From a virus: a DNA stretch of 32,223 bases. The stretch lies in IMG/VR virus record IMGVR_UViG_3300046467_002655, positions 1 through 32,223 of that record. One strand, 5' to 3'. Both the position numbers and the translations under genes were made by a program. Below the pieces are notes generated by a model. The model searched no databases, was not told the DNA's origin, and saw nothing but the letters and a program-made list of their open reading frames with translations. Position 1 is the stretch's first letter. Each line of letters begins with the position of its first letter. Below, one piece after another: positions 6,388 through 32,223 of the stretch.

Positions 6388-6390
6388 AAA

Positions 6391-7974: not shown

Positions 7975-7983
7975 CTGACGATA

Positions 7984-8370
7984 ATGCCTTTATATACTTT
8001 CGAGAATCCCGAAACCGGTGAATTTCAGGACGTCTTCTTCCATATGGACGACGATAAAACCTATATGGACAAAAATGGGTTAACCTGGAAAAGGGTTTTG
8101 ATTTCCCCACAACTTAGCACCATTAGCTCCATAGACCCATGGAACAACAACGACTTCGTTAACAAAACAGCGGACATGAAAGGTACAGTTGGAGACATGC
8201 TCGACAAGAGCGCCGAACTTTCCGCCAAAAGAGCAGAAGAGAGTGGTGGAGTGGATCCGGTTAAAAAAGAATTTTACAAAAACTATTCCAAAGAAAGAAA
8301 AGGGGCGAAACATCCTTCCGAAAAAGGGAAATCATACGAAAGTAAAAACGTAAAAATTGAATTTGATTAA
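7984..8370 (+). CDS. FmdB-like small protein lacking the zinc-ribbon cysteines
   Basis: From the ATG at 7984 the protein has 128 residues and starts MPLYTFENPETGEFQDVFFH. The beginning and spacing resemble FmdB-type zinc-ribbon regulators (MPLYEYxCxxCGxxFExxxxM...CPxCG..xRRxIS). Here the CxxC knuckles are replaced by NPET and by DKNG in YMDKNGLTWKRVLISP. The rest is a charged tail rich in Lys and Glu. An upstream in-frame ATG at 7933 would add 17 hydrophobic residues and lie within the preceding gene, so it is less likely. The function is unknown; the FmdB relation is by eye and moderate. Confidence 0.55.
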   Translation: MPLYTFENPETGEFQDVFFHMDDDKTYMDKNGLTWKRVLISPQLSTISSIDPWNNNDFVNKTADMKGTVGDMLDKSAELSAKRAEESGGVDPVKKEFYKNYSKERKGAKHPSEKGKSYESKNVKIEFD

Positions 8371-8371
8371 T

Positions 8372-10833: not shown

Positions 10834-10835
10834 GA

Positions 10836-11222
10836 ATGAGAATTTCCACACCTATTTCGGTTGGTGAGCTTTTTGATAAAATTTCCGTTCTTGCGGTGAA
10901 AAAACAAAAGATAAGCTCAAAAGAAAAATTAAAGCATGTAGCCAAAGAGTATGATCTACTTTACCCCCTCTACAGTAAATGTATTAAAAGGAAACCAGAG
11001 CTAAAGGGAACATTAAGAAAACTAACATCTATCAACGAAAACCTTTGGGATGTCCTTGAGACTCAAAGGCAAATGGAAGAAAAGGGTGATCTAGGAGAAG
11101 ATTTTGTCACGGTCTCCGTCAATGTGTATAGGAAAAACGACGAAAGATTCCGCTTGAAGGAAATAATTAATGAGCTAACCGGCTCCGCGATCAAAGAACA
11201 AAAACATTACACCACAAAATGA
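10836..11222 (+). CDS. DUF6165-like protein inserted between the two halves of GT9
   Basis: The 128-residue, mostly helical protein starts RISTPISVGELFDKISVLAV and continues with lysine-rich helices (KQKISSKEKLKHVAKEYDLL) and a final VYRKNDERFRLKEIINEL. This matches the small DUF6165-type proteins often found beside glycosyltransferases (SxGELxDKIxIL.. near the N-terminus). It lies 2 bp after the fusion gene and overlaps the next gene by 4 bp (ATGA at 11219-11222). It therefore sits exactly between the two GT9 domains. Function is unknown; it may act with the glycosyltransferase as an accessory subunit. Confidence 0.65.
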   Translation: MRISTPISVGELFDKISVLAVKKQKISSKEKLKHVAKEYDLLYPLYSKCIKRKPELKGTLRKLTSINENLWDVLETQRQMEEKGDLGEDFVTVSVNVYRKNDERFRLKEIINELTGSAIKEQKHYTTK

Positions 11223-15966: not shown

Positions 15967-18900
15967 TTATCTAGTTAGAGCATAAACTCTTGTGAAGTAT
16001 TCTCCGTCTTCCACCACTCCGGCCCCCCTGTAATTATAAGACTGAGTGGTTTCAGTCCCAGTATCAGCCTCAGTCTCAAAAGTGGCCAATAATATTAGTC
16101 CATTAAAAAACTGTACCCTATAACCGGCAGCCCCCTGTACCTTGTCCCATGAAGCCTTTAGGCCGTATCCGTTTTCTTCGAATATACCTATTTCTACATT
16201 TGTTGGCCCCCCCAGCGGTTGCTCCGTGAATATTAAGGGGGATTCGGGTTCTTTAAGTGATAAATCGTTATCTATATTCCCGAATTTCCCTGAGTTGTAT
16301 TGAACCCCCTGTATTTTAAACACCCCGAAAGACTCCTCGGTTATATTAATCACCCTATAACTATCAGGATTTGCCAAATTCACTGAGTCCTCAAGGGCGA
16401 ATGTAGTGCTCTGCGCGCCGTCTATTTTCATCAATGAATCGTCGGCTTTCTTTTCTAGGATATAAGGGCCTGTTTGCCCCGCTACAATCGTCACCCAGCC
16501 CCCGTGCTTAGAAGCAGAGTATGATCCGCTTGTGGCGATGAAATTCCTCATAGTAGACGGCACCCTTCCCTCGTCGGGTATTGTCGGTTCTGGGGCATCC
16601 GGCGTTATGGTTAGGTCTGTAGGGGCATCCGGAAGAGGAGGGAGGATATCGGGGAACCCATCCGCCCAATCAAAGTAACTTATGGCGTCTCCAGTACAGC
16701 CTTGTGGCTGATACCACACGAACCCAGTGGGCTCATGCTCCCCTCTGTGGTACCCCCCTAACCAGGCTACCTGGTCTTTGGGTAAAATGGCCTCCACGAG
16801 CCCTTGGTCTACGGAGTTATTTACGGTGGCCAGTATTCCTCCCTGGGCCTCCGCCTCCTTCAATGCTTCGGTCCAGGTGTAATCACCCTCTATGAAACTA
16901 TACGGATTGTTCCTTAAATGTAATTTAGTGTCATTATGCGTTATGTCCGACACCGAATATTGCCCAATTTGCCTAGCCCTTAAGTCGTCTATGTTCCCGT
17001 CAGTTACCTTACCTCCTTCGTCCGCAATAGCATTTAGAGACCCTATGGTTTGATTTCCTGATAGGCTGTATATATTTATTGTTTTCCATGTACTTGAGGT
17101 CCCCGGGTCTATGAGTGCCCTAATCGGAAAGTCAATATCAACCTCTGCCGCTTTCCCGTCTCCGCTTACCTTGAAATCTAAAACCTTACCAGCGAACCTC
17201 CCCACTGTTCTTTTGCTGTCAAGGACACTAACGACATCTCCGGGCCTGAGGTAAGACCCTATGACGCTTGTTTTGAATGAAATTAGTTCAGTTTCTAGGT
17301 TTGCACTTTTAACTAAAAACTCAGTCGCCCTTTTTGCTTGCCCTGGAGAAGTAATACCGAATCCATCTATTGTTTGCTCGATTATATTATTGTCCCTTAT
17401 CGATGGAGTGTCTTCAGTGACCTCTATTTTTGCCCTAAACTTATTATATTTATCGGTGTATCTTATTTTACAGGAATTTGTTCGGCTTGTTTTGGGTGTG
17501 CTAGAGTAGCTAAACCCCTCTTCTGATATATTATTATTGGAGAAGAGCATAACTGGCTCCTTTTCCTCATCCTGAAAGAAGTTTATTGCTCCGCCCGCCC
17601 AATAAGCATAAGCCCGGAATATGGCGGCAAATTCACTTATCACCTTGAATGCGTTCTGACGGCTCATCAACATTCCATTAAAGGTATATCTGGGCTCCAG
17701 GAGGGGATAGTCGATGGATACGGCACAAACCCCTCCTTGTTGCTGTGGTTCGTAGTCCAGTGTTATTGTTTTTTCTTCTACGCTAAAGCTCTTTATTTTT
17801 ATAGAGTCATAGCTTCCGTCTGCGTAAAAAAGGGCTAACTGTTTCCCTACGCGAGCAAACTCAGTTTTAAAGCTGGGAAGTTCGTAGTTGGGAGCTGTTA
17901 TTTTGATTTCTCCCCCACCAAGTATTTCAAATTCTCTTTTGGGATACTTCGAGCTATATCCCGTAGGTATTTTTTGATCACAATATTTGGCTATTTTATA
18001 AAGGGTCCACTTGTCTATATTTTCAGGCCTAAGCCCGAACTTGGCTACCCCGTATCTTTGGCTAGATATTAAATCATAAAGGCACCAGGCGGGGTTGTCC
18101 GTCCAGTGATTTGACGGTTCATCCTGCATTTGAGTTTGTCCCTTAAACTTGCCATTCCAGTTTCCTTCGTATTTTCTTGTTTCTGCATCATAATTGCTAG
18201 GTATCGCCACTTTTTTGAGTTTTAGATTATAGGTCCTATTCGGTGTTGAGGGCACGTCTTTTGCGTTCACCCTTGTTCCGATCATTACGGAATTTGAATA
18301 ATTCAAACGGGTTGGGACGATTTCGGTCACTGACCCTAAGCTCATTTTTTCCTTATATCTAGCCGACATTTCCCCTTCTTTTACGGGGTTTCTTTCGTAG
18401 TTTAATTTAAAAACCTTTATAGTTCTGTCCTTTTGCGACGGATTGGGCGGGAGATATAGTTTTATATCTTTTAGGTAGGGGGAGGTGGCTACACCGTAAA
18501 TGTTTATATCGGTTACGAATGGTATTTCCGCTTCGTTTCCATATTTTATCCTAAATCGGGCTCTATTAGGCCACGTTTCTCCCGAGTTCTCCACCTTTGT
18601 CCCCACCTTCCACCACTTGTTCGCTATGTATACTATAATTCCTAGTGTGACTATGGCGCCAAAAGCCAGATTGACGCCCGTTCCCACTCCTGCGCTTTTA
18701 GCTGCGCCTCCTAACCCCATCGCTGACTCCACAAGCCCAGGCTCTAAATTTAATGTTTGCGGAGAAATAGCGGCTGTTGCAGCCACCCCCTGGCCGTGCC
18801 CGGCCACCGCCAACTCGAGTGCCATCGCGGCCTTCGCTTTCCCCTTGGCTATCTCAAACAGTCCCATTGCGGTTAAATATAACGCCCAAAACTTCCCGAG

Positions 18901-21309
18901 TTGATACGTTACATCTATCTCATCCCCAGGATATATGAACACTAACTCGTCCACCCTAAGGGTTACAATGACCTCCTCAACCAATGGGTTTATTACGGTA
19001 TGAGATAAAGAATACTCCTCTGCCGACTTAGCTAAAACCGTCCCATCGCTAGAAGAATACAATACAAATAGACTCCTCCTTAAATCTTCATCCGCAACCC
19101 CCTTGACGGTAACCCCCCCTTCGGTAGGTGAATCTATTTTGACCTTATCCCATAACGCACTAGTGCTTGTTGGGGTCACATCAACTTCGGTAGCGTGACC
19201 CGCTGCACTGAGGACCTCCATCGGGTATATTTTATTTTGGTCTACATATAATGGATCAGCCCTACTGGACAGATTTCCTCCTATGGCTACTCCCGTTATT
19301 TTAAAGAGTTGACCCATTGTGTTCGGACTGTTTCCCATTGATTGCTGTACTATATCCCCATTTGTATAAGTTCCGTCTTCACTATACTCTCCTTTAAAGA
19401 TGTCAATGCCATTGGTGAATTCATAATATTTCATGGCCTCTTCAAACCCTATGCCCTTGACTTTATCCCCGGCCCGATAGGGCCTTGTGTTTTGCACAAA
19501 TTGCCCGCTGAACGCTGGGTATCTATTAAACTCTTTGGTTCCTACGTAGAAAGAATATGTCTCTTGGGATTGTATATATACGTAGTCCCCCGACTTGTGG
19601 TCACTCCCCTCCTTGAACGGTGTGTCTAAATTACCCATTACCCTATAATTGTAGCTAGAGTCCGTGGTCGTGTGCGTCAGTACGTCCCCCCAGTTATAGG
19701 GAACATTGGGGACGAATTCCGTCATGTTGATCGTGGTTGTTCCTATATTGGTTACCTTCGTATTTCTAGGTCCGAATAGCTGCTGTCCATATTGAGTGGT
19801 ATTGGCCGTGAACAGATATTGTGGCTCCAGTAGCGTTTGGTCTTGGGCCCCTATGTCTCCATTGACGTTCATTCCTACGTCTATATCGAACTCATTTACA
19901 TTGTAAGAGTCTTGGGCGGCTATAGTCCCTGGATTTGTTATCTCCTTAACTGGGGTGTTGTCTAAGAAAACTGCCCTCATGTAATCGTCGTCTTTACTTC
20001 TTAGTACAACCCCCTCTGTGCTAAGCAGTTCCGCTGTTGGATTTTCTATAATTTTTTTAAATTCCAAAGTGTTCCCGTTTTCGTCGGAAAATCCCTCAAT
20101 CGGCCCCTCCCCAATTAAGTCTATGGTCTTTTGTATGGATACCGACTCTAGCTTAAACCAACCAACACCGTACTTTTTCTGTTTATTCCTCCACCTTTGG
20201 CCCACTTGAATTGGGAATACCCCATCAGCATTCTTCTCCGTTGTCCACGTCGGGAGATAGCCTAATTCGTTAGACCCAAAAGCAGTTGGATAAAAGAACC
20301 TCTTTGCTTCCTGCATGCCTGGGGAGTTGTCCAGTAGAGGGGAGCTTTGCAAACAAACAAACGAACTTTTTGTTGTATTCACTTCCGCAACAGCATAGCC
20401 CTCTCCGTCCTCTGGATCTGGCCACCAATTCCCGTGCGGCTCAGCATTGGGTATTAGGTAAGTATCCAAACCTTTAAAATAATTATTACAATAGTTGAAG
20501 TATCCCCCTATAAAGTTTCCTTTCTTCTGGCACCTTTGGAACTTTGCGTTCGTGACATCGTCCTTCCTATACTGATCTATATCTACATAGCCCCCATATA
20601 GAGTCTCCCTTGCTCCAAAGAAGTTCCCGGCGGTTTGTTTCGATAACGCAGCAAAGGTGGGGTCCACCGACCTAAATTGACTTACTCCGTCAAACGCATT
20701 TAGGATGTAAGAGGACCCGAGGGGCCCTAACTCAGGAATGTAGTACCTGCTATAAGTCGGCACCACACTATATTGGCCGCTATTAAAGCTTATTATCCTT
20801 CCGTTCTCATTGTTGAAGTCATAGTTAACAATGGCGCTTGATATTACATTACTCCCCACGATGAGTCTACCATATCCCAATGGCACCGTAGTTCCTTGCT
20901 CGGCCCTATTTTCTTTTCCTTGGTAAAGATAGGATTGGGTTTGGGCCGCCTTGACCGAATCGTCTCGCTCCATCGCTTCCGCAAACTTTTTGTTGATATA
21001 TATACTCCCCGCAATACTCGCCGCCATCATAAGTAAGGACCCCAGAAAACCAGCACCTTCCGGTATTGCAAATACATGAATGTCCCCCGGCATCCTTACC
21101 TCCCCCTCTCCTTCCCCTAGAAACTCCCCATCTGGATAGCTCTTAAACCCATATACTACCCCGTCCTTTTGCTTGTCGAATAAATATTTTTCTATGTCTG
21201 GGTTATTGGCCGTAAGGGCTCGAAAAGCCTCCATGGGGGTATAGACGTCGAGATCCCACTCGCCCCCAAACTTGTCCCCTAATGCTCCATGCAAAAATAC
21301 CTTTTTCAT
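15967..21309 (-). CDS. Fused tail-tip protein: gpI-like domain + host-specificity protein J with C-type lectin domain
   Basis: The 1780-residue protein starts with a gpI-type ubiquitin-like domain (1 to about 95: KKVFLHGALGDKFGGEWDLD, TPMEAFRALTANNPDIEKYL) and continues as gpJ. J marks are AEQGTTVPLGYGRLIVGSNV (about 135-155), KTIDLIGEGPIEGF, and HWTDNPAWCLYDLISSQRYG (about 1066-1085). Hydrophobic stretches lie near 87-105 and at about 882-903 (LAFGAIVTLGIIVYIANKWW). Residues about 1461-1552 are a C-type lectin domain (TWTEALKEAEAQGGILATVN, VAWLGGYHRG, FVWYQPQGC, FDWADGFPD). A Pro-rich linker and a C-terminal fibronectin III-like domain (about 1690-1780) follow. Lambda J has about 1130 residues, so this one is greatly enlarged. 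It forms the tail tip that contacts the host receptor. AAAGG lies just before the ATG. Confidence 0.88.
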   Translation of the reverse strand: MKKVFLHGALGDKFGGEWDLDVYTPMEAFRALTANNPDIEKYLFDKQKDGVVYGFKSYPDGEFLGEGEGEVRMPGDIHVFAIPEGAGFLGSLLMMAASIAGSIYINKKFAEAMERDDSVKAAQTQSYLYQGKENRAEQGTTVPLGYGRLIVGSNVISSAIVNYDFNNENGRIISFNSGQYSVVPTYSRYYIPELGPLGSSYILNAFDGVSQFRSVDPTFAALSKQTAGNFFGARETLYGGYVDIDQYRKDDVTNAKFQRCQKKGNFIGGYFNYCNNYFKGLDTYLIPNAEPHGNWWPDPEDGEGYAVAEVNTTKSSFVCLQSSPLLDNSPGMQEAKRFFYPTAFGSNELGYLPTWTTEKNADGVFPIQVGQRWRNKQKKYGVGWFKLESVSIQKTIDLIGEGPIEGFSDENGNTLEFKKIIENPTAELLSTEGVVLRSKDDDYMRAVFLDNTPVKEITNPGTIAAQDSYNVNEFDIDVGMNVNGDIGAQDQTLLEPQYLFTANTTQYGQQLFGPRNTKVTNIGTTTINMTEFVPNVPYNWGDVLTHTTTDSSYNYRVMGNLDTPFKEGSDHKSGDYVYIQSQETYSFYVGTKEFNRYPAFSGQFVQNTRPYRAGDKVKGIGFEEAMKYYEFTNGIDIFKGEYSEDGTYTNGDIVQQSMGNSPNTMGQLFKITGVAIGGNLSSRADPLYVDQNKIYPMEVLSAAGHATEVDVTPTSTSALWDKVKIDSPTEGGVTVKGVADEDLRRSLFVLYSSSDGTVLAKSAEEYSLSHTVINPLVEEVIVTLRVDELVFIYPGDEIDVTYQLGKFWALYLTAMGLFEIAKGKAKAAMALELAVAGHGQGVAATAAISPQTLNLEPGLVESAMGLGGAAKSAGVGTGVNLAFGAIVTLGIIVYIANKWWKVGTKVENSGETWPNRARFRIKYGNEAEIPFVTDINIYGVATSPYLKDIKLYLPPNPSQKDRTIKVFKLNYERNPVKEGEMSARYKEKMSLGSVTEIVPTRLNYSNSVMIGTRVNAKDVPSTPNRTYNLKLKKVAIPSNYDAETRKYEGNWNGKFKGQTQMQDEPSNHWTDNPAWCLYDLISSQRYGVAKFGLRPENIDKWTLYKIAKYCDQKIPTGYSSKYPKREFEILGGGEIKITAPNYELPSFKTEFARVGKQLALFYADGSYDSIKIKSFSVEEKTITLDYEPQQQGGVCAVSIDYPLLEPRYTFNGMLMSRQNAFKVISEFAAIFRAYAYWAGGAINFFQDEEKEPVMLFSNNNISEEGFSYSSTPKTSRTNSCKIRYTDKYNKFRAKIEVTEDTPSIRDNNIIEQTIDGFGITSPGQAKRATEFLVKSANLETELISFKTSVIGSYLRPGDVVSVLDSKRTVGRFAGKVLDFKVSGDGKAAEVDIDFPIRALIDPGTSSTWKTINIYSLSGNQTIGSLNAIADEGGKVTDGNIDDLRARQIGQYSVSDITHNDTKLHLRNNPYSFIEGDYTWTEALKEAEAQGGILATVNNSVDQGLVEAILPKDQVAWLGGYHRGEHEPTGFVWYQPQGCTGDAISYFDWADGFPDILPPLPDAPTDLTITPDAPEPTIPDEGRVPSTMRNFIATSGSYSASKHGGWVTIVAGQTGPYILEKKADDSLMKIDGAQSTTFALEDSVNLANPDSYRVINITEESFGVFKIQGVQYNSGKFGNIDNDLSLKEPESPLIFTEQPLGGPTNVEIGIFEENGYGLKASWDKVQGAAGYRVQFFNGLILLATFETEADTGTETTQSYNYRGAGVVEDGEYFTRVYALTR

Positions 21310-21326: not shown

Positions 21327-22040
21327 TTACACTAGGGACGGATGCCTGTAAACTTGTTTTATTTTATTTTGCCAACGTTCATCTAGAATTTCCGTCTTAG
21401 ATAGTAGTTTGTCTGGCTGATGTATAAATTTATCGTCCCCTAAATATATCCCTACATGTAATCTTTTGTTCTTTTTTATTTCAAAAACTATTAAGTCATG
21501 TTGGTTTATTTTTTCCTTTTTTACTAACTTCATGTTCTTTTTTAATATTCCACCTAGTAATGCATTTGCTTTTTTATCTTCCTTTGGCAGCCAGTAGTTC
21601 TTATTCCATTCACTTATGTTTATATTTAACTCTCTTTTGTAATAGTCTTTAAATATTGAAATACATTCACAAAACGCCTGAACATAAGGTCTTTGAGTTA
21701 GCTCTGGAGGCCTGTAACTATCGGGGTAATAGAGAAAGAACTTTTCTGTTTTAACGCTGTAAATCAAATAAGGTATACCCATCTCCTTTGAGGCGGCCCG
21801 ATCTCTAGCCGAAGGGCGTTCCGTAGACGAAGGGTGCGAATGATAAATCCCTAATATGTTTTTATTTATTTTATAATCCAGAAACTTAGAAGGGGATATC
21901 GCGAAAAAGTCTTTCCTGTTAGGGCTTTCGTTAATTGCTCTCTCTACTCTTACGGTAAGGTCTGGGTTTAGCAATATAAAGCCACACACCTCTTCCTCGG
22001 GGCGTTCTTTGGCGTGGTCAATTATTTCTTTTTCAAACAT
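21327..22040 (-). CDS. Tail assembly protein K homologue: JAMM domain + NlpC/P60 peptidase
   Basis: The 237-residue protein has the two gpK domains. Residues 1 to about 105 are a JAB/MPN metallopeptidase with an intact JAMM motif: H67-S-H69, then seven residues, S77, two residues, D80, with an upstream Glu in EEEVCGF (15-21). Residues about 118-237 are an NlpC/P60 cysteine peptidase: FCECISIFKDYY aligns C125 with the nucleophile of DCYGLVRDYY, H195 lies in LHVGIYLGD, and H207 in FIHQPD may be the third residue. Such proteins act in tail-tip assembly and may cut cell-wall peptide during entry. It abuts gpL directly (stop at 22041, start at 22040). All catalytic positions look intact. Confidence 0.9.
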   Translation of the reverse strand: MFEKEIIDHAKERPEEEVCGFILLNPDLTVRVERAINESPNRKDFFAISPSKFLDYKINKNILGIYHSHPSSTERPSARDRAASKEMGIPYLIYSVKTEKFFLYYPDSYRPPELTQRPYVQAFCECISIFKDYYKRELNINISEWNKNYWLPKEDKKANALLGGILKKNMKLVKKEKINQHDLIVFEIKKNKRLHVGIYLGDDKFIHQPDKLLSKTEILDERWQNKIKQVYRHPSLV

Positions 22041-23105
22041 TTACTTAAACTCATAAGGGTCAACCCCGGGAAATCCCCCAAACGGCAATCCGTTCATTCC
22101 CTCTATCCATGTATTTGAAGATGAAGTTGTTTGGGTCGTCATCCGTTTTCCTCCGCCTGCACCAGTGGCTGAGTTTGCGAATCTTAATCGGCATCCACAC
22201 AGAGTTCTAGAACATTGATCGAGAGCCCATTCTTCTTGGTTGTAGGCAGGATTCGACCCTGCGTTGTTTTCTAGACACACATAGACGTCGACAGGGCTAC
22301 ATCCTCCGTCAGTCTCGAAAGGCGAAATAGCTACGGTGTCCCCCTTTTTATACACTCCGGTAGCCGCCCATTCCGGATACGATCCATTCGCATTTTGGGG
22401 AGCGAATTCAGTAGATAAAAAGTCACCACTAAAGTACACCTCCGACCCAACCATGCTTGTGTCCCCTCTCCCCTCCGTGTTGTTTTTGTTGTGATAACCG
22501 CTATTAACGAATCTTTTATTTTTTACATCCGCTATAGGCTTTCCCTGGTAGCCGCACCCTATTTTCCCTCGATAAACCCAAGGGCACGAATTAGAATATA
22601 TTGTCCTAGCTGGCACATCGGCGTTTTGAAGCTCAAGCAGTGAAACTAGTTCAAACTCAACAATATTATCGTCTTCCCTAGTTTTTTGGTTCACGTAAAA
22701 TACATCTTCAGAGAAGGCGGCTTCTGGATCGGCCTCTGCGTGAGGGTTCACATTGTCTGGGAAATTTATATCGTCTAAGTATTTTACAAAAGTCTTAATC
22801 CTCGTTACCTTGTAATTTATAAAGTCCTTGAAAGAATTCAACCTTAACGATATTACCCCTTGATGATTTGAAAAAGTTAATTTGGGCCTAGGTAGCTTCC
22901 CATCCCCATGCATTTCAAACCCCTCGGCTTTTATGGGAAAGTAGTCATACTCTTTTGCATTAAAAACTAGTTTTTGTTGGTACCCATTTTCTCCGGCGTG
23001 AAAAAGATAACTCCCCCGTTCCTTTAAATCAATTTTATATAAACAAATCACAACCGAAGGGTCGAGCTCGAATAAGGTTTTTGTGTTCTTTTCTGTGTCT
23101 CTCAT
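22041..23105 (-). CDS. Minor tail protein L homologue with inserted carbohydrate-binding-like module
   Basis: From the ATG at 23105 (1 bp after the preceding stop; an ATG at 23144 would overlap by 38 bp) the protein has 354 residues. The N-terminal 170 residues follow gpL (ELDPSVVICLYKIDLKERGS, GFEMHGDGKLPRPKLTFSNH, FELVSLLELQNADVPARTIY). The C-terminal domain keeps the cysteines that bind an iron-sulfur cluster in lambda gpL: C174 (NSCPW), C184 (IGCGY), C298 and C303/C305 (CSRTLCGC). Between the second and third cysteines lies an insert of about 110 residues. It contains PEWAATGVYKKGDTVAISPF and VYVCLENNAGSNPAYNQEEW, like a CBM5/12-type carbohydrate-binding module. gpL is part of the tail-tip ring under gpJ. 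Confidence 0.88.
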   Translation of the reverse strand: MRDTEKNTKTLFELDPSVVICLYKIDLKERGSYLFHAGENGYQQKLVFNAKEYDYFPIKAEGFEMHGDGKLPRPKLTFSNHQGVISLRLNSFKDFINYKVTRIKTFVKYLDDINFPDNVNPHAEADPEAAFSEDVFYVNQKTREDDNIVEFELVSLLELQNADVPARTIYSNSCPWVYRGKIGCGYQGKPIADVKNKRFVNSGYHNKNNTEGRGDTSMVGSEVYFSGDFLSTEFAPQNANGSYPEWAATGVYKKGDTVAISPFETDGGCSPVDVYVCLENNAGSNPAYNQEEWALDQCSRTLCGCRLRFANSATGAGGGKRMTTQTTSSSNTWIEGMNGLPFGGFPGVDPYEFK

Positions 23106-23106
23106 A

Positions 23107-24375
23107 TTAATAGCCCGGTGTTGTTGAGGCGCCCCCATCGGCACCCCCGAAGGATCCAGTGAAAGATACTAAATTTAAATCACTAGTGATATTGCCTGCA
23201 TAAGCACTCCTAGGAGGTAAGCCAAACACTTTATGCACATATGCGTATTTATTGGTGGGCGGTAGTAATGTATTTTCTTTTTGTAGATATCTACTTTGGG
23301 AAGAATGAGGCTCTAGCGCTCCTAGTCCCATATGCCACCTGATTTTTGTCCCTACCCCATTGAAAGACCAAGGGTTTACGTAATTAACTTTGCCTAGACT
23401 TCTTATGTCGTCGGAAGCCCCGAAGTATAAAAAACAATAATTAATTACCCTTCTTAATGTCTCGGGGTCTCTTGAGCTTAGGTCTACGTTGGTATTATCA
23501 ATTACGTTTCCCCATAAATGGCTTTTTAATTTTCCATACCAATGCTGATTTAAGTAATCGATCATCTCATTGGAAAATACAGTATCCCGGTTCTCTCCAT
23601 TTCTAAATACCGACCCCGCATTACAGCCATCGTTTATAGCGAAAATACTATTCCACTCATTGAGGGTGGATAGCTTATCTGTTCTATTGGTGATAGTGGT
23701 TCCAAATCTTTCGGGCAGCACAGTCGACCCCGCATTCGCCCACGTATTGTTTGAGAAATTTCTTCGTAAGTCTACCTGAAATACGCAACCCTCCAATGTG
23801 GAGGCATATAAATCGAAAGATCCAGTTGTTGCGATATCCGTATTCCGGGAGATAATAAACGGTACGTCCGTGTTTCTAGCCACACTCCCCCTTAGCCCCG
23901 TAGGAGAGGCTCCTAGGGTCAGAGGAGACGTGGGGGGCTGTAGGTTGTTTATTTGAATATGTCCAGATGGAGTCCAGGCGTCATCGTAATATTGCGAGGG
24001 AACCAATTTCCCAGATTTCACGACTGCATTTTCATTTAGTGACGCTTTATCCGTAAACGTGTCCAGTCTTCCGGTGGTTAATAAATTAGACGAAGACAAG
24101 AGGGATACTGAACTTCCAGGCACCCAGCTCAAGAAGCCGGAATACCCCGTCTGACTTGACTCTGACGCAGATAGTGAGACTATATTTCCATTTTTTCCTC
24201 TTTTTCTGGTAATGGATGATACATAGTCGCTGGTTGTGGAATAGTCTATGACGCCATTCCCTCCGCTCTCATAAACTTTTATCGAAGAGTAAGCCCCTGC
24301 GTCCATAGCTACGGTTAGACTAAAAAAGTCGTTATTGGGGTCGTGATTCCCGGAAGATGCGCTGTAAATATTCAT
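23107..24375 (-). CDS. Tail-tip protein of unknown family
   Basis: From the ATG at 24375 the protein has 422 residues. It begins MNIYSASSGNHDPNNDFFSL and is rich in Ser, Asn, Thr and Gly with few charged clusters, typical of a beta-structured virion protein. No catalytic motif or known domain is seen. A mixed region (about 265-330: NEMIDYLNQHWYGKLKSHLW, PETLRRVINYCFLYFGA) is helical, and the last 25 residues are Gly-rich. It is translationally coupled to the upstream gene (TAATG at 24373-24377) and precedes gpL. In lambda, M is followed directly by L, so this is an extra tip component. An ATG at 24393 gives a longer but less likely start. Confidence 0.6.
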   Translation of the reverse strand: MNIYSASSGNHDPNNDFFSLTVAMDAGAYSSIKVYESGGNGVIDYSTTSDYVSSITRKRGKNGNIVSLSASESSQTGYSGFLSWVPGSSVSLLSSSNLLTTGRLDTFTDKASLNENAVVKSGKLVPSQYYDDAWTPSGHIQINNLQPPTSPLTLGASPTGLRGSVARNTDVPFIISRNTDIATTGSFDLYASTLEGCVFQVDLRRNFSNNTWANAGSTVLPERFGTTITNRTDKLSTLNEWNSIFAINDGCNAGSVFRNGENRDTVFSNEMIDYLNQHWYGKLKSHLWGNVIDNTNVDLSSRDPETLRRVINYCFLYFGASDDIRSLGKVNYVNPWSFNGVGTKIRWHMGLGALEPHSSQSRYLQKENTLLPPTNKYAYVHKVFGLPPRSAYAGNITSDLNLVSFTGSFGGADGGASTTPGY

Positions 24376-25523
24376 TATGTTCCCGCCTCGCACATTGGCT
24401 GTTCGGAGTAATTTCCGCTTTCCACTATGAACATCCTTACATCATCAGGGGGCCCAGCGACTATCTCCGCATTGAAAAACACCGTATGATTGTGCGTGCT
24501 TTCTGGAAATTGCTCAGATAGTATCTCAAATTGCATCCCAGTATAAGTATACCCCCCCGCTTCAAATATCTTATAATTATTGGCCTGGTAAGATCCGCTA
24601 ACGAATTCCCCGACTTTATAATCTTCTATGCTTGCGCCCAGAAGGTCCCCGATAAACCAAGGGAGCGGTCGGCTCATCGTCTCGGTGATTAACTGATGAA
24701 AAGTCCCCAATGCTCCGCTTATTCCATAGTCCCCATAGAGATCTATCCAGTCGTCGCCAAGGAAATCTGGGAAAAAATCTGCCGCCCCTGATATCCCAGT
24801 GTATTGGTTCTCAATGGAATTTATGTCGCTTACAGTTTGAAAGCCTATAGTCGGGGTGCTTTGGAGGCAGTGGTAGCTCGCTATAGTTGCCAGCGTACTG
24901 ACGTCTGGGGTGGTAAAGTTATCATTATTGGATAAAAAGTCCGGGACATCCACTGTATCGCAAACCAATTGGCCAGTTAACGTAAAAAAAGCGTCGCAAT
25001 CAAATTCATCCGCTGAACAGTTTAGAATAGGAATTCCTGGATATATTTCTATTTTTGCGCCAAACTTATCCCCCGTCATATTGTCATAAGTTCCAGCGGT
25101 CCCCGTTTCTAACTCGCTACGTAGTGGATGAAAAAACGTGGGAATATTTACGGTCGAATAAGGGGGTATTGTGAGTGGCAATTGAGTTGTATTGCCACTC
25201 GAATAGGTGTCGTTGTAGTTCTCCTCGGTAAATATACTAAACCTGACTGGGTCTGAATTCCTAAATCCAGTTATCGTAAAAGGGAGCGTGCATGTATTTG
25301 CTATGGTTACGAATTTTCCCTTGTCTACCGTTTTCCTTTCTATGTTGCAATAAAATAAAGGTATCGCCGCTTGAGCGCACGCGCCATCCACCATGAGATT
25401 CTCCGAAGCTTCTGTTTGTATGTACTCCACGCCCGGCTCGGTGATTATTTCACCGCACGTAGGGAATACTGAAGTGCCCATTGGGCTGAGGCATATTCCG
25501 GAATCTGTAGTTATAAAAGCCAT
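24375..25523 (-). CDS. Tail protein with a possible ASH/Ig-like domain, otherwise unrecognised
   Basis: From the ATG at 25523 the protein has 382 residues, starting MAFITTDSGICLSPMGTSVF; an ATG at 25604 would overlap the upstream gene by 73 bp. AAGG lies 11 bp before the chosen start. Residues about 65-205 resemble an ASH (ASPM-SPD2-Hydin) immunoglobulin-like domain: GKFVTIANTCTLPFTITGF, VRFSIF, LPLTIPPYSTVNIPTFFHPL and FFTLTGQL follow its pattern of a non-terminal strand, a PxSxxxxxVxFxP strand and a final strand. Several cysteines (for example CSADEFDCD) could form disulfides in the virion. The C-terminal half is acidic and unrecognised. It lies between the M-like protein and gpL. Confidence 0.6.
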   Translation of the reverse strand: MAFITTDSGICLSPMGTSVFPTCGEIITEPGVEYIQTEASENLMVDGACAQAAIPLFYCNIERKTVDKGKFVTIANTCTLPFTITGFRNSDPVRFSIFTEENYNDTYSSGNTTQLPLTIPPYSTVNIPTFFHPLRSELETGTAGTYDNMTGDKFGAKIEIYPGIPILNCSADEFDCDAFFTLTGQLVCDTVDVPDFLSNNDNFTTPDVSTLATIASYHCLQSTPTIGFQTVSDINSIENQYTGISGAADFFPDFLGDDWIDLYGDYGISGALGTFHQLITETMSRPLPWFIGDLLGASIEDYKVGEFVSGSYQANNYKIFEAGGYTYTGMQFEILSEQFPESTHNHTVFFNAEIVAGPPDDVRMFIVESGNYSEQPMCEAGT

Positions 25524-25531: not shown

Positions 25532-28500
25532 CTACCTTAGGTCCCAAAAAAGATCTCCGAAACAATCGTTTCCTATACGAATAGTGTGAGGAGTACCTGC
25601 GCAAGGATCAACTGGAGTAGGATTTACAACATCTACAGGGGCAGACGTTATGGGGGATATGTCTACTATAGGATCATCCGGTTCGCTACAGTTTTGCAGC
25701 CAGGTTTGGTAGGCGGTCTCGAACAGAGGGGAAGCGCCCCAGAAAGAAGCCTCGACCAAGCATTTGTCGAGTAGGTCATTAGCTGTAGTGATGAATGGCG
25801 CCGTCTGAATATCCTGGAGCAACAATTGAGTATTTTGCGGAGTAATTGGGCCCGTAGGTGATGATAATCTAGTCCATGATGTACATGGCGTATCCGCAGG
25901 CGGGGATTGTGTGCAAAGCTGCCTAACTATATCTAGGAAAACCTTTGCGTTATTAGGTGCGCTCCCGTCTGCTTCTGCAGGGAAATACACGCACTCAGAT
26001 AGGGTATTGTAATATAATCCATTTGTACTTTTGTAGAAATTAAATATTACATCTTCCGTTGCCATTGGGCTTAACAATATAAACGCGTTACTCAGTCTTA
26101 TATCTCCCTGGTAAGAGTACTCCACCGGGCTTTCCGGCCACTGCCTTAAGCCCGCGTCGAGCCCTTGTTGATTTAACGTTAACCCGGTATTCGCGGGAAG
26201 CCCCCCCGTTGCTGCCTCTAACGCCAACCAAAGCTCGTCTCCCCCTCCGGTCATTCCTTGGCTATCGAGAGATCCCGTCCAAGGCCTTAACTCTCCATAT
26301 CCCGCCTCCGCCAATACAGCCGCCCAGTCCAATTTCTTTCCGGAAGTTGTATCTAAAACGTACCACCCCGTACTGCCAACATCTTCATATGGCTTCTGTA
26401 TCGGTTGGTTTTGATACCCGCTCAATAGCCTTCTCATGGGGGCTGTATTCACTTCCAGCCCTTGAAAACTTTTGCTTCTTAATTGGAATTTTTCTGCGCA
26501 TCTACCGGCAGGTGACTCAGGGTCGGTCGGGGGCTCGGGGGTCGGCTCGGGGGTCGGCTCGGGGGTCGGCTCGGGTTCTGGTTCCTCTGGGCAAGAGCAA
26601 TCCACAGGGTCTCTGCTTGAACCATCCCAGCAAATGTCCATTGGGCAGATAACGGGCTCTACAATCGGAGCGCGGGGTGGCTGTGAGGCTACGGCATCCT
26701 CCGCTGATGGGACTTTTATAGTGAACTCATAATTACCAAAACACTCCATTTGCCTGGAGGTTCCGTCGTCTGAATTAATCACTATCTGAACCTTTTCGCT
26801 AAAATCGCTTAGCTGGTTTACTCTTACCCCAAAGAACAAATCCAACTGTTCTCCTGGTTGCAGCTTCGGTAGATGAGAGTAGTCTCCCTTGTGATCATTT
26901 GCCGCCATCACGTTTCCGATATTGTAATCTACTATCTGAAGACCAGAGTCAGCCGTAAATACCCTGATTGGAGAACCCTTGAACGCAACCCCAGTGTTTT
27001 TTACCCCCTCAGTGGACCCCGAGTTTTGAGCCCACCCGTTACCTATGTCGCTCACTTTTCCGGCCCTGTAAACCTCGAACTCGGTATTAAATGACTCCCA
27101 TAATATATTAGATGCGAGAGAATCGTCTGTGAAAAGGTTTTGATTATTTGGGTCGAAGAAATACTGCCCCCCATAACCTCTTTTTATAGAATTTAGTCCC
27201 TCGTTGGGCTGCGTAAAATTCAGTTGGGACACGCTGCCCCCCTTCGGGATCCCTTGATCTAAGGTTTCGGTGGACCACTTAAGTGCAGATGGTTGATTTT
27301 TTATATTGATTAAACTATTCAGTAGGGTCACCTCTTGAGGGCCACAGTTATGCAAGGTTATCGAGAAAATATTTTGATATCCATCATCCTTGGTCAGTTT
27401 TTCTAAAATAGCAATTAGATCCATCATTCTCTGGAGCTCATCCGTCTGTAAATCTCCGGACGAAGTTATAGGGAAGTAAAACTGAGGGAGAGGATCTATC
27501 GCCCCGCTAAAAGGAGGAGGCAAGCCCTCGTAGTCATAAGCATAGGTTGGGGCGTATTTTGATAAATGCCCCGGGACCCCTATGGCGCAAGGCATGACCA
27601 TTGTGGGTATATTATCGCCGTACCAGCCTGGATTATCTTCGCCGCCTTCAGACTTATCCGGGTTGATTAATTTAGATACTCCGTCACGCCCTTCTTCTCC
27701 TTCATATTTTTCCATTTCGCTGTTTATAGACCACCGCCCCCCATAAGATTTTAGAATAGCGTCCTTCGGTCTTCTTTTGGCTAGATTGCCCCCTTTCTGC
27801 ATGGCCTGACACATAGCGAACGCAGCGGGGTCATGATAAGTATTATAGGCGCGTCTACCCGCCCCCGATTGGCCGTACCCTCCGGTCAGGACGAAGTCAC
27901 TAAGAGCTATGATAATCCTATCAGTTACATATTCAGCCCTTGGGCTATTATACATCATGGCCATTGCCTGCGACAGTGCGCCAGTCAAGTTTTCATACCC
28001 GCCCGCACGTGCGGCTCGGCTATTCACCTTTCTAAGTAGATTTAATTTGTCAAATGAATCAGGGTAGTCTGATATATCTATCACTACCCCAGACTCTCCT
28101 GAGTGGCCGGCAATAAGCCCCGTCATTAGAATGAATCCTATATTGGTTCTTTTTTGGTCTATTGGTATTTTAAACCTCTCTAGGTTTTTTAGATTATACC
28201 CAACCGCATCTAGCTGTAAATTAAGATCTTGATCGGGATCTTCCGCGTAGAGTTCGCTTATTAGGCTAGTGTAGTTGGCTATATCAGCTCCTGAAACGGT
28301 TGGGCTAGATAGTTTCGCCGGCCAAGGAGGGAGGTTGGAATTGCCGTCTATGGAAGTAAACCCCAAAGCGGGAACATTATAAGTCCCTCCCCATGACAAA
28401 GTTTGAGGCATCTGGTAGTCGTCATAGGCCATTATTATCTTTTTGATGACATCTAGGGCTACGGTATATTTTTGGTGCCTCTCTCCTCCAGCGCTTATTG

Positions 28501-31174
28501 TATACGTCATGCTGCCTGACCCATCTATCATAAAAACAATATCCACGGCTTTGAATCTTGCGTTTATTCCAGGTGCGCCATTAAGGGATGAAAACCCTTT
28601 CCCTGGAGCCACCTCCAGCACTGAGGAGAAAGTACACAACCCATGCTGAGTAATGGGGTCAAACAACTGTGCTCCAAAACATGGCTCTTCCGCTTTTTGG
28701 TTAATCCCGAATACAGCCCTCAAGTCTTCTTCTATGCTTGTGGATGATTCAATAAATGTTGCCGAAATGGTGTGGTTGTTTTTGTATATTACCTGATGGT
28801 TCCATGTTGGGCAGAAGAATGTGGACATGTATGGCCTAGCCTGAGTAGTTAGGCTACTGTCGTCCTTGAGGTAGGGCCTCGGCATCTGGAATCTGAATTT
28901 TTTATACCCCAATTGGGACTCTAAAAACTGCAGTATCTCCGCAGCTTCGGAGTCGCTTCTTTTGTCAAACGTTACTGTAAATGTCGACAGGTTTTGGTTT
29001 ATTCCTTTTTTGAATTTATGGTTGTAATACTGAACGAACTTAGAAGATGTATGAGAGGGGGCATCCTGAATTGAGAATGCCATGCTTGGCTTATGGTCAA
29101 AGTTTCTTACCTTTATCCACGGATACTTGATAAACTCATCGGGGCATTTCATATAAATGCTGTGCCTCCCCCTTACTGCTGGCAGAAGCAGCTTGAAATC
29201 ATCGGTCGATTTAAGAGTAAAGGTCTCCAGTGGAGTCACCTTTATGCTTCCCGTCCTGGCCGCCTCTTCCCATTTCGATGTATCGAAAGATATACCCGAA
29301 GTATGCTCTACAATGCATGTGTACACGGCGCCATTAAAGCTCACAGAGTACCCCACGCTATAAGGAGTGGAGGCGCCCCAGGCCGCTGAGGCCTCCACAT
29401 CGTCCCAGTTGATATCCGAGTCTAACTGTAATTTTCTGTAATATTTAGTATAAAGAATACGCGCATAAGTTTCTCCGGTACAGGGATTTGTGGGACGAGC
29501 TTCTATCGTCGTCACTCCCGGGGGCATTAATATGGTGTTAGTTATACAGTCCTCCGGACACCTTATCAGCTTCTTAACCGTGGCGGGATTGCTTACAGTG
29601 GAATCTAAAACAGCCAACGCCTCTTCAGCCGTCTCAGTTGAAATTAAATCTCCATCTTCTATTCCAACCGGAATCCTTGCTCCTATTGCCGTTTGGCTTC
29701 CCGTAGCCTTTATTGGAGAGAAAACAAATTCTGTGTCCGATAATTTTTGAGTTACCTTGGTTTGCCCTACGTCAAATATGGAATCGGATTCGTCCGGTAC
29801 GTCTATGTAAAGGCAATCTCCGACCCCTAGGTCTTGGTTGGCGCTAAAGCTTAGTAATCCTCCCTGTATTAATTCAGCTTCGTCCTCTGGGTATTTTGAT
29901 ATTTCTATTAAATTTGTAAGTAGCGTTGCGGCAGCAGCTTCTAGTGAGAAAGTATTAAGCTTTATTGGCACTCCCTTTCGGAAGGTAGTGGTTTTATCTA
30001 GAAACACGGGGATCAATGCGTCAAGCCTATCATTATAGCCCGCATGACTCTCTACGTTTCGCAAAGTACTCTCGGTATTGCAAATGAATTTGGCTTGAAC
30101 CTGATTATTGTTCCTGTATTTTTTGTTATGACTAAAATCCGTACAGGTAAACTTCAAGTCTTCTCTGTACGGGTAAGTGTATTTGAAACTAAAAGTCCCA
30201 ACATCACTTGATAGTAAGCGGTTGCCTCTGTAGTCTAATGCAAAAATAGATTCATAAGGAAAAAACTTTTCTTGTAAAAAATGTATAATGGCTCGAGCTT
30301 CTTTATCCGTCTTGTTCTCAAAGCTTAGGCTTAATTCCATAGGCAGCGAGTTGATAGCCAGATTGGCAACATAATCGGCCCCCTCGCCCATTTTAAATTT
30401 ATCATCTATTGCGGCGAAATTTGATTTTGAGTTATAAGCTGGCCTCCAAACGAAATCTTGTGTCCAGTAAGTTGACCCTTGTGCGCTGTTCGGGTTGTTG
30501 GAACTAGACGAAGTATTGTCTTTAACGCAATAAAAGAATCTACTCATATTGCTAGCCCATGGCTGCTTAAATACGAAACTCCCTACTTTTAGTCCATAAA
30601 CAAAAACCACTAAAGCAGCGCTAGTGGCGTTGGACGGAATTGACTTTGATTCTATATCTAGTTGGGTATTGTAGTATTCATTTTCATTGAGCTCGCTCGA
30701 CCCCATTAACCTGTGAGTCTTCCTTAGGTCCGCTACGCCTAGCCGGTCTCCACTCGAATCGTAAAATTTTATACCTACCCCCACCCCTAGGGAGGTGTCA
30801 GGATCTACGATATATATTCCATCCTCTAGCTTTTCTTTGATTAAAGTTTTATAGGGGTCTACTGTCTGAGATTTTTCGTTTCCTTTTCGAATCATCGAAC
30901 GTATGGAATAATTCAAGGATGGGTCTATGGAAAACCGATCCCCAATTTGAACTTCTTGGCTGTTTCTTAAGCTTGCTTCATCTGTAATCTCTATAACGAT
31001 AATCGACTCGTTTTCTTCTACAATCTGTTCTCCGCCGTCGGTTGCAAGTGGGGTGATCGGCATGTCGTTAATAGTGACCCCCTCCTCTGACGGAAACGCA
31101 AAATTCCCAACCCTAACTATATCGTTAACTTGGTATTTTTTTTCGCTTCTCCAGCTATTTGCGGGGATATCCAT
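25532..31174 (-). CDS. Giant tail protein: two minor-tail-M-like domains, CBM-like module, vWA domain, PEPT hinge
   Basis: The 1880-residue protein has two regions like the phage minor tail protein M family. They are at about 230-370 (MELSLSFENKTDKEARAIIH, FKYTYPYREDLKFTCTDFSH) and about 690-810 (LSTFTVTFDKRSDSEAAEIL, FFCPTWNHQVIYKNNHTISA). Between them, about 592-637, is a CBM5/12-like module (AWGASTPYSVGYSVSFNGAV, YTCIVEHTSG). Residues about 876-1250 form a von Willebrand A domain with complete MIDAS residues: D884-G-S886-G-S888, T1064 (NLTGALSQAM) and D1093 (LSDFVL). A Cys- and Pro-rich hinge with PEPT repeats (about 1533-1551) leads to a C-terminal domain of about 330 residues with several cysteines. 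Lambda gpM has about 110 residues. The gene takes M's place between the upstream tail genes and gpL. Its start overlaps the upstream stop (TAATG). Confidence 0.8.
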   Translation of the reverse strand: MDIPANSWRSEKKYQVNDIVRVGNFAFPSEEGVTINDMPITPLATDGGEQIVEENESIIVIEITDEASLRNSQEVQIGDRFSIDPSLNYSIRSMIRKGNEKSQTVDPYKTLIKEKLEDGIYIVDPDTSLGVGVGIKFYDSSGDRLGVADLRKTHRLMGSSELNENEYYNTQLDIESKSIPSNATSAALVVFVYGLKVGSFVFKQPWASNMSRFFYCVKDNTSSSSNNPNSAQGSTYWTQDFVWRPAYNSKSNFAAIDDKFKMGEGADYVANLAINSLPMELSLSFENKTDKEARAIIHFLQEKFFPYESIFALDYRGNRLLSSDVGTFSFKYTYPYREDLKFTCTDFSHNKKYRNNNQVQAKFICNTESTLRNVESHAGYNDRLDALIPVFLDKTTTFRKGVPIKLNTFSLEAAAATLLTNLIEISKYPEDEAELIQGGLLSFSANQDLGVGDCLYIDVPDESDSIFDVGQTKVTQKLSDTEFVFSPIKATGSQTAIGARIPVGIEDGDLISTETAEEALAVLDSTVSNPATVKKLIRCPEDCITNTILMPPGVTTIEARPTNPCTGETYARILYTKYYRKLQLDSDINWDDVEASAAWGASTPYSVGYSVSFNGAVYTCIVEHTSGISFDTSKWEEAARTGSIKVTPLETFTLKSTDDFKLLLPAVRGRHSIYMKCPDEFIKYPWIKVRNFDHKPSMAFSIQDAPSHTSSKFVQYYNHKFKKGINQNLSTFTVTFDKRSDSEAAEILQFLESQLGYKKFRFQMPRPYLKDDSSLTTQARPYMSTFFCPTWNHQVIYKNNHTISATFIESSTSIEEDLRAVFGINQKAEEPCFGAQLFDPITQHGLCTFSSVLEVAPGKGFSSLNGAPGINARFKAVDIVFMIDGSGSMTYTISAGGERHQKYTVALDVIKKIIMAYDDYQMPQTLSWGGTYNVPALGFTSIDGNSNLPPWPAKLSSPTVSGADIANYTSLISELYAEDPDQDLNLQLDAVGYNLKNLERFKIPIDQKRTNIGFILMTGLIAGHSGESGVVIDISDYPDSFDKLNLLRKVNSRAARAGGYENLTGALSQAMAMMYNSPRAEYVTDRIIIALSDFVLTGGYGQSGAGRRAYNTYHDPAAFAMCQAMQKGGNLAKRRPKDAILKSYGGRWSINSEMEKYEGEEGRDGVSKLINPDKSEGGEDNPGWYGDNIPTMVMPCAIGVPGHLSKYAPTYAYDYEGLPPPFSGAIDPLPQFYFPITSSGDLQTDELQRMMDLIAILEKLTKDDGYQNIFSITLHNCGPQEVTLLNSLINIKNQPSALKWSTETLDQGIPKGGSVSQLNFTQPNEGLNSIKRGYGGQYFFDPNNQNLFTDDSLASNILWESFNTEFEVYRAGKVSDIGNGWAQNSGSTEGVKNTGVAFKGSPIRVFTADSGLQIVDYNIGNVMAANDHKGDYSHLPKLQPGEQLDLFFGVRVNQLSDFSEKVQIVINSDDGTSRQMECFGNYEFTIKVPSAEDAVASQPPRAPIVEPVICPMDICWDGSSRDPVDCSCPEEPEPEPTPEPTPEPTPEPPTDPESPAGRCAEKFQLRSKSFQGLEVNTAPMRRLLSGYQNQPIQKPYEDVGSTGWYVLDTTSGKKLDWAAVLAEAGYGELRPWTGSLDSQGMTGGGDELWLALEAATGGLPANTGLTLNQQGLDAGLRQWPESPVEYSYQGDIRLSNAFILLSPMATEDVIFNFYKSTNGLYYNTLSECVYFPAEADGSAPNNAKVFLDIVRQLCTQSPPADTPCTSWTRLSSPTGPITPQNTQLLLQDIQTAPFITTANDLLDKCLVEASFWGASPLFETAYQTWLQNCSEPDDPIVDISPITSAPVDVVNPTPVDPCAGTPHTIRIGNDCFGDLFWDLR
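26532..26575. repeat. 12-bp tandem repeat encoding a Pro-Glu-Pro-Thr hinge
   Basis: GGCTCGGGGGTC occurs three times in tandem (26532-26543, 26544-26555, 26556-26567) with a partial fourth copy. On the coding (minus) strand it encodes PEPT repeats in the giant tail protein, between its vWA part and its C-terminal domain. Copy number could vary by slippage without breaking the frame. Confidence 0.85.
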
Positions 31175-32223
31175 TATCTGTAAGATTGCTTTATAGACGC
31201 TCCACCGGCTAAATATCCACCCTCGGATACGCTTAAGTCGTTACTGTCGATTACTCCATATAAAGAAAACTCTTTTAATGTTCCAAACTTATTATCAGTA
31301 AATCCAGTTTCAAATCCTAAATCTTTTAATTTTATATTTAAATTAGCTCTTTTACCTGTTATCTTTAAATACGGATCTAGTCTTTCTCCTCTTATTTTAG
31401 CTGTTATGTTTATTGCTTCTTTTGTTACCCTTGTCGGAACTTCTCCGTCAGGGTCTTGATTTCCGCTTATAGGCAACTCAAAACAGGGACTCCTGCTTGC
31501 TGAAATTGAATAACTGAAATCTAAAGGATAATTTATTCCAGCATCGTCAGATCCATTTATTTTTGTATTTATCGCATGAGGCACCGTTTTTTGGTTGGGC
31601 ATAAAACAACCGTAATTGCTAGTTATACTCTCGGAGTTCCCCTCTACGTATCTAAGGTTTCCATATATATCTAAATTTGCTGTTGTTTGTATTACTTGGA
31701 ATGGTTTTGCGGAAAAAGATATATCTCTTATATAAGCATTATCAAAAAAATAATCGCCCAAACACCCAGTGACTTTCCCTTCATTTACTTGAGGATATAC
31801 AGTGCTATCTATTAACCCCGTAACATCAAAAAAAGACTGAATGTTTCCAGTATTCATATAATAAGTTATAGCCAGAGAGCCTTTTGTCGGGCCTGCTGCC
31901 GCATAGCTTCTTAAAACCTCGATCTCTCCCTGCTCGATGTCGTATTCGTAGCTTAAGGTAGTTTCGCCGGTCGACCTCACTTTTATGTAATAATCCCCAG
32001 GATTAACATCAGCGTCTACGATCAGGCTTTGGCCGCCGGGGTAGGATATTTTTGAGCCGCTCTTAATTACCTCTATAGAATCCGAAAGTTTAACCCCTGG
32101 GCCATTTGGGGGGCCCATCAAGAACCCGGAACTATGCGCTTCATTAAAATAGACGTCACCAGTCTGCAACGCAAATGAAATGTGGTGGTCGTCCGCGAAC
32201 TTTTTTGCATCTATTGGCTGAGA
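31174..32223 (-). CDS. Tail structural protein, 5' end beyond the window
   Basis: The frame is open to the right edge (349 residues seen), and the nearest internal start (TTG at 32169) is not needed. The residues before it (DAKKFADDHHISFALQTGDV) read as normal protein, so the true start lies outside. The protein is beta-rich: LSYEYDIEQGEIEVLRSYAA, IRDISFSAKPFQVIQTTANL, DIYGNLRYVEG, LDFSYSISASRSPCFELPI. The style resembles tail-tube or tube-capping proteins, but no family is firmly recognised. The stop overlaps the start of the giant M-like protein (TAATG at 31172-31176), so both belong to the tail operon. Its place, where lambda has the tape-measure/M boundary, makes a minor tail role likely. 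Confidence 0.6.
   Translation of the reverse strand, partial: SQPIDAKKFADDHHISFALQTGDVYFNEAHSSGFLMGPPNGPGVKLSDSIEVIKSGSKISYPGGQSLIVDADVNPGDYYIKVRSTGETTLSYEYDIEQGEIEVLRSYAAAGPTKGSLAITYYMNTGNIQSFFDVTGLIDSTVYPQVNEGKVTGCLGDYFFDNAYIRDISFSAKPFQVIQTTANLDIYGNLRYVEGNSESITSNYGCFMPNQKTVPHAINTKINGSDDAGINYPLDFSYSISASRSPCFELPISGNQDPDGEVPTRVTKEAINITAKIRGERLDPYLKITGKRANLNIKLKDLGFETGFTDNKFGTLKEFSLYGVIDSNDLSVSEGGYLAGGASIKQSYR

Follow-up and report, generated by a model that had tools for sequence, protein, structure and literature searches.

A tail protein with two M-like domains and a predicted von Willebrand A adhesion arm in an IMG/VR phage record

Introduction

In phage lambda, gpM is a protein of 109 aa with a single domain, and six copies in two conformers form a 3-fold ring (PMC10721106). 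In phage JBD30, three gp49 chains, each with two beta-sandwich domains, form a trimer that leads from six-fold to three-fold symmetry; gp49 also carries additional oligosaccharide-binding domains (PMC11445458). The evolved Dit proteins of lactococcal skunaviruses contain inserted carbohydrate-binding domains, which differ between phages and promote adsorption (PMC10688798). A central von Willebrand A (vWA) domain is present in gp164 of Bacillus phage 0305phi8-36, which is encoded in a baseplate/fibre gene region, and this domain is replaced by another one in relatives (PMC2147016).

Here, we describe an 1880-aa phage protein in which two M-like domains are followed by a vWA domain in the same chain. 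The vWA and integrin-type I domains are classic cell adhesion modules; to our knowledge, attachment chemistry of the I-domain type on the distal tail ring of phages has hardly been discussed.

Organization of the tail operon

The window (the whole stretch analysed, 32,223 nt) is a 32-kb IMG/VR virus record, from an uncultured, apparently marine phage group, with its tail operon on the minus strand. The operon begins with a gene cut by the contig end, followed by the gene for the 1880-aa protein, two genes without family matches, and gpL-, gpK-, and gpI/gpJ-like genes, as listed below.

31174..32223, minus strand: upstream tail gene, truncated by the contig end; relatives encode 399-403 aa, and homology to the 399-aa genes starts from their residue 35.
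25532..31174, minus strand: whole gene for the 1880-aa double-M distal tail protein with a putative vWA adhesion arm; open reading frame, with homologues in ~30 contigs that cover most of the chain.
24375..25523, minus strand: first gene after the arm, an ORF of 409 aa that is exchanged together with the arm; it lies inside the exchanged block and is absent from sister phages.
23107..24393, minus strand: second gene of the exchanged block, 428 aa; DNA identity returns only near its 3' end, and sister phages lack it.
22041..23144, minus strand: gpL-like hub protein (Pfam Phage_tail_L, 1.6e-46; PHROG 18).
21327..22040, minus strand: gpK-like protein (JAB and NlpC/P60; Pfam and PHROG matches).
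15967..21309, minus strand: gpJ-like central fibre with a gpI-like N-terminus (PHROG 31, E 1e-105; PHROG 32 at residues 1-106).

This arrangement agrees with the sequence-only reading, which had placed an 1880-residue protein at the position of lambda gpM; between it and gpL, two extra genes are present. The true start of the 409-aa ORF is probably at codon 28, to judge from homologues that begin at ORF residue 28. Profile comparison lent no support to a relationship of the two following genes and the upstream gene with JBD30-type gp47, gp48, and gp50.

Ring domains and carbohydrate-binding-like modules

Four domains were delineated in the N-terminal half of the protein.

30527..30979, minus strand: jelly-roll domain resembling CBM16/CBM4/CBM22, residues 66-216 (AlphaFold, local pLDDT mostly 80-92; Foldseek).
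30020..30412, minus strand: M-like ring domain 1, residues ~255-385 (matches the profile of domain 2; found in every sister double-M protein examined).
29255..29401, minus strand: inserted CBM5/12 module, residues ~592-640 (Pfam PF02839 at 598-626, E 5.8e-8, above the cut-off).
28751..29104, minus strand: M-like ring domain 2 (Phage_min_tail), residues 691-808 (Pfam PF05939, E 9.8e-14; profile match to lambda gpM).

The presence of two M-like domains, proposed from the sequence, was borne out for domain 2 by PF05939 (52.1 bits vs a cut-off of 39) and for domain 1, which Pfam does not detect, by its profile-to-profile match to domain 2 (probability 98.8%, E 4e-17). All members of set A2 (9/9) match Phage_min_tail, and a profile search of solved structures matched domain 2 to lambda gpM (8iyk_M, E 1.2e-4). 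The AlphaFold model of the N-terminal half is of moderate quality only (pLDDT 66.5); its best Foldseek matches include the Chi tail tip (8vjh_B, E 1.4e-4), the JBD30 baseplate (8rk3_D), and the lambda tail tip (8iyk_E, gpM, probability 0.99), as well as carbohydrate-binding modules of families 16, 4, and 22. The latter matches (probability 0.99-1.00, ~149 columns, E 4e-3) correspond to the N-terminal jelly roll, and were placed on residues 66-216 from the strands of the model rather than from the tool output. The CBM5/12 insert, of chitin-binding type, occurs only in the window phage and is absent from all other aligned family members.

The protein thus resembles lambda gpM in the sequence homology of its M domain 2 and in its position upstream of the gpL-, gpK-, and gpI/gpJ-like genes, but differs in its length of 1880 aa, its two M-like domains, its CBM-like domains and arm, and the two extra genes before gpL. 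With JBD30 gp49 and the Chi distal tail protein, it shares two ring domains per chain, decorating domains, and a fold match, whereas those proteins are ~560 aa long and lack a vWA arm. Alignment of the family profile by hhalign with JBD30-type gp49, represented by that of the JBD30 relative JBD25 (same length, 567 aa), revealed no detectable sequence similarity (probability 0.2%). The trait of an evolved Dit is present, as the distal tail protein is longer by binding modules than the short form of the sister phages. In the skunaviruses these modules are carbohydrate-binding, whereas the main added module here is the vWA arm, in a different phage type. We read the protein as a double-domain distal tail protein of JBD30 gp49/Chi-like architecture and file it as an evolved-Dit variant.

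In this reading, the tail would be of the lambda-like siphophage type, with this protein as its distal (ring) component. Three copies would probably assemble into a ring of six domains linking the six-fold tube with the three-fold tip, with a tandem M-M chain in place of the six gpM copies of lambda; the trimer is suggested by analogy with JBD30 gp49.

The vWA domain and its metal-dependent adhesion site

The C-terminal half begins with an enlarged vWA domain containing a metal-dependent adhesion site (MIDAS).

27389..28558, minus strand: enlarged vWA domain, residues 873-1262 (AlphaFold; Foldseek to MIC2, integrin I, and VWF A3; relative L114 passes VWA_2).
28511..28525, minus strand: MIDAS motif DGSGS (D884, S886, and S888), at the C-terminal end of model strand 1 (sequence).
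27983..27985, minus strand: MIDAS T1064, capping the N-terminal end of model helix 238-250.
27896..27898, minus strand: MIDAS D1093, directly after the strand at model 260-267; invariant in the family (34/34).

In the window protein, the Pfam match to PF00092 is weak (17.1 bits, or 20.4 on the isolated region, vs a cut-off of 23.8). The assignment is secured by relative L114, which exceeds the cut-off of VWA_2 (PF13519; 30.3 bits vs 27), together with an AlphaFold model and Foldseek. The model of residues 826-1495, built from 26 sequences, has a pLDDT of 84.4 and a pTM of 0.87 and adopts an open Rossmann-like fold. Its Foldseek matches are A/I domains of MIC2, integrin, VWF A3, and TRAP, among them the MIC2 A/I domain (2xgg_B, probability 1.00, target TM 0.66); the E-values are modest (7e-4 for the best PDB match and 3e-3 to 9e-3 for MIC2). 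A search of solved structures by sequence with the arm profile gave no match. The predicted fold and MIDAS layout are thus common to the window domain and the adhesion I/A domains (Toxoplasma MIC2, integrin I, VWF A3, and TRAP), but the window domain shares only ~10% identity with them, contains large insertions, and occurs in a viral tail context.

All five MIDAS residues are at the positions named in the sequence-only reading (in the contexts IVFMIDGSGSM, GYENLTGALSQ, and IIALSDF), and in the model they occupy canonical topological places at strand and helix ends. The comparison with vWA adhesins likewise came out as proposed, in that the predicted fold matches adhesion I/A domains. The domain is also enlarged, to ~390 residues (307-443 in relatives), close to the earlier estimate of ~370 vs ~200. 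With less certainty, Mg/Mn may be bound at the intact MIDAS of the window phage, which would then take part in ligand binding.

Three further regions follow the vWA domain.

26705..27388, minus strand: conserved beta-rich domain (beta-sandwich), residues 1263-1490 (model secondary structure; invariant NCGP, GGQ, and DLFFG motifs).
26510..26584, minus strand: PEPT hinge, residues 1531-1555 (sequence).
25535..26509, minus strand: Cys-containing, lineage-specific C-terminal region, residues 1556-1880 (not conserved; replaced between near-identical phages).

The hinge and the Cys-containing C-terminus, with several Cys beyond the PEPT stretch, are both present as had been described from the sequence, but they lie outside the conserved machine, since several relatives end at ~1490 without the C-terminal module. 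They were therefore rejected as part of the core device. The largest versions of the protein, L066:8001-15590 (2530 aa) and L065:872-7951 (2360 aa), have C-termini of ~850 residues of unknown kind. In L074:1202-3439 (a contig also listed as L009), a CBM5/12-like stretch (YVVGDIV...YYQCIKNT...YWQN) was read by eye inside the vWA domain, where Pfam gives no match.

Related contigs and sister phages

Neither the whole protein nor the arm matched any of 50,697 phage records; an IMG/VR pattern search with the window arm alone returned no relatives, and neither did a search of GTDB genomes with the ring half. Relatives were reached via gpL, which identified ten IMG/VR contigs at 58-65% identity, each with the same large protein in the same place, and subsequent profile searches extended this set. 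In total, the protein is conserved in ~30 related IMG/VR contigs at 36-50% identity. Conservation is uneven along the chain, the mean pairwise identity being 68% for M domain 1, 64.5% for M domain 2 (the two most conserved regions), 42% for the vWA domain, and 24% for the C-terminus. In four contigs (L060, L061, L062, and L070), adjacent but separate genes encode the ring and vWA halves, divided near residue 856-872, which indicates that the vWA part is a distinct unit.

A further ~30 contigs represent sister phages, with gpL 35-39% identical. They encode only a naked double-M protein of 376-513 aa, nearly the whole of which consists of the two M-like domains, and gpL follows directly. The arm and the two genes after it therefore appear to be an add-on, unless the sister phages have lost them. 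Two genes upstream of one sister ring protein, a 2289-aa protein (L136:1-6867; tape measure by position) has a match to PF00565 barely over the cut-off (1.5e-4, staphylococcal-nuclease-like). The only host hint, a weak one, came from a gpL search of GTDB genomes, which gave a relative (66%) on L086, a short, 3.6-kb contig of a Candidatus Marinamargulisbacteria MAG whose binning is uncertain.

Variation of the MIDAS within the family

The DxSxS motif is intact in 26 of 34 family members and broken in eight (8/34), all of which fall inside one 15-sequence part of the arm tree, the root and long branches of which are uncertain. Broken or altered forms include DGDPI, DGSAA, DGGPS, EAGEG, and KKGAS. 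At the column of T1064, T or S is found in only 6/34 sequences, as counted in a fixed alignment column with adjacent T/S ignored. The most divergent members have canonical sites (DISGS/GGT/TDG in L036 and DRSGS/GGGT/SDG in L114). On the arm tree, the simplest reading is that the ancestral site was intact and the losses came later.

The proposal of a metal-gated arm is thus supported only in part: the MIDAS is intact in the window phage, L036, and L114, but metal dependence is not a property of the family. The arm cannot depend on metal in general, as some family members have a degenerate site; these relatives must bind in some other way.

Exchange of the arm between near-identical phages

An exchange junction was located just upstream of the vWA domain.

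28585..28615, minus strand: arm-swap junction, residues ~854-863; DNA identity breaks here in two independent pairs, and the gene is split nearby in four relatives.

The breaks in the two independent pairs map to residues 854 and 863. In the pair L048 and L045, the DNA is 99.5% identical up to residue ~854 (window numbering), whereas the arms share 37-38% protein identity; the next two genes also differ, with 77% partial similarity where the first of them begins. DNA identity returns, at 99.7%, where the second of these genes ends, and extends into gpL, gpK, and gpJ. In the pair L055 and L067, identity breaks at the same two places against a lower background identity. The L045 arm is present in one contig only, so a chimaeric assembly may underlie that one case, but the L055/L067 breaks lie at the same two places. 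The MIDAS is lost in the L045 arm (KKGAS), whereas the L048 arm carries DTTGS, and both are joined to the same chassis. As intact and broken arms both fit, the tail can be assembled without metal binding at this site.

The regions that change most in near-identical pairs are the vWA domain and the C-terminus. In L052/L054 and L068/L059, only the C-terminal end has been swapped and the vWA domains are 96-99% identical, while in L063/L071 the vWA domain is the most changed long domain (69% vs 88-98%). Exchange of the arm between near-identical phages is as expected for an attachment part, and the swap pattern is what receptor-specificity modules show; as sequence evidence for a role in adsorption, it is only suggestive.

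Other phage proteins with vWA domains

A vWA domain on a tail-tip protein had been regarded as an unusual attachment device, but it is not unique. The isolated Rhodobacter phage RcTitan (Titanvirus; likewise RcSpartan, RcHartney, RcThunderbird, and RcMotherGoose) encodes a vWA domain with a full MIDAS in gp22 (L082:17177-18904), a protein annotated only as hypothetical or tail assembly protein. This gp22 is related by sequence to JBD30 gp49 (E 6.7e-5), and its vWA domain separates two halves with matches to YuA gp72, for which the annotation is particle protein. Like the window protein, it is a distal-tail-type protein with a vWA domain and a full MIDAS, and its gene directly follows that for the tape measure; unlike the window arm, its vWA domain is ~190 aa long and lies between the ring-domain halves instead of at the C-terminus. 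Comparison of the two vWA domains gave no useful match beyond the DxSxS stretch (hhalign 6.7%), and the insertion in RcTitan is, from the sequences, apparently independent. Stenotrophomonas phage QH3 has a related vWA domain with a full MIDAS (DTSNS/GGT/TDG) in a different protein, annotated as virion structural. The gp164 protein of 0305phi8-36 is a further example, from the baseplate/fibre gene region of an unrelated large Bacillus phage. As sequence comparison revealed no kinship of these precedents with the window vWA beyond the motif, recruitment looks repeated. The vWA proteins of haloarchaeal viruses (CobT-like, or beside AAA ATPase genes outside the virion module) and a Vi01-like VWA protein were set aside as different systems.

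Possible roles of the arm

We consider it likely that this distal tail protein bears an exchangeable arm for adhesion, with a ligand on the host surface. The C-terminal half (vWA domain, beta-sandwich, and variable end) would project outward, and the arm would bind its ligand probably together with the products of the two following genes; we infer both the projection and the host-surface binding. The main rival is an arm that acts as an internal assembly dock, to which side-fibre or baseplate proteins of the phage itself (encoded at 24375-25523 and 23107-24393) would bind instead of a host ligand. vWA domains often mediate protein-protein contacts, the arm swaps with these two genes, and the sisters lack all three, as expected of co-adapted partners; moreover, distal tail proteins help to build the tail-fibre attachment sites in JBD30 (PMC11445458), and the distal tail protein bears fibres or spikes in Sf11, T5, and p2. 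A fixed dock would not be expected to be more variable than the ring domains in near-identical pairs, and the CBM-like domains in the same chain also speak against a dock. A purely internal dock is therefore a real but rather improbable alternative, and it does not exclude an adhesion arm, since a mixed role is compatible with both.

How an adhesion arm would bind is a separate question. In a full metal-gated version, the Mg/Mn ion of the MIDAS would coordinate an acidic ligand residue as in integrins, and the metal would switch attachment. The canonical places of the five residues in the model and the canonical sites of L036, L114, RcTitan, and QH3 favour this, but the degeneracy of the site within the family, the lack of conservation at T1064, and the replacement of an intact by a broken arm on the same backbone leave it doubtful. 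It is unlikely that the vWA domain is only a scaffold, a stable Rossmann-like spacer without a ligand of its own, with binding by the variable C-terminal module. Loss of the MIDAS in part of the family, retention of D1093 even at broken sites as for a structural residue, and the swaps confined to the C-terminal module in L052/L054 and L068/L059 would suit such a spacer; the relatives that stop at ~1490 have no such module, however, and in L063/L071 it is the vWA domain that has changed most among the long domains. An assembly artefact, or a chance joining of a gpM gene to one for a bacterial vWA adhesin, might be suspected from the absence of a similar protein in the phage records and from the separate halves in four contigs, but the occurrence of the fusion in many independent contigs from different metagenomes refutes it.

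For an adhesion arm of this kind, natural exchanges provide matched arm pairs on nearly the same backbone, and the association of the arm with a two-gene block predicts which proteins make up the attachment device in uncultured phages. RcTitan is an isolated phage of Rhodobacter capsulatus, so the question of metal use can be addressed in the laboratory at once. More speculatively, integrin-like MIDAS domains may have been added to the distal tail ring several times among tailed phages, to serve as metal-dependent attachment arms, which in the present family would form a recombining specificity cassette with metal-dependent and metal-independent arms interchangeable on one chassis.

Glycan-related genes in the window

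A dense glycan cluster is present at 366-12403, with GATase_7/asparagine-synthase-like, GT2, nucleotide-sugar transferase, and GT9 genes and two phrog_2170 glycosyltransferases. The 150-kb relative G004 also contains many glycan- and nucleotide-sugar-like genes, as judged by N-terminal sequences only. Within the glycosyltransferase cluster of the window, two adjoining minus-strand genes, 1724-2362 and 2359-3291, encode proteins resembling a GT29 sialyltransferase (PF00777, 2.2e-26) and an exostosin of family GT47 (PF03016, 3.7e-19; RXYLT1_C, 3.4e-10), respectively; both families are best known from animals.
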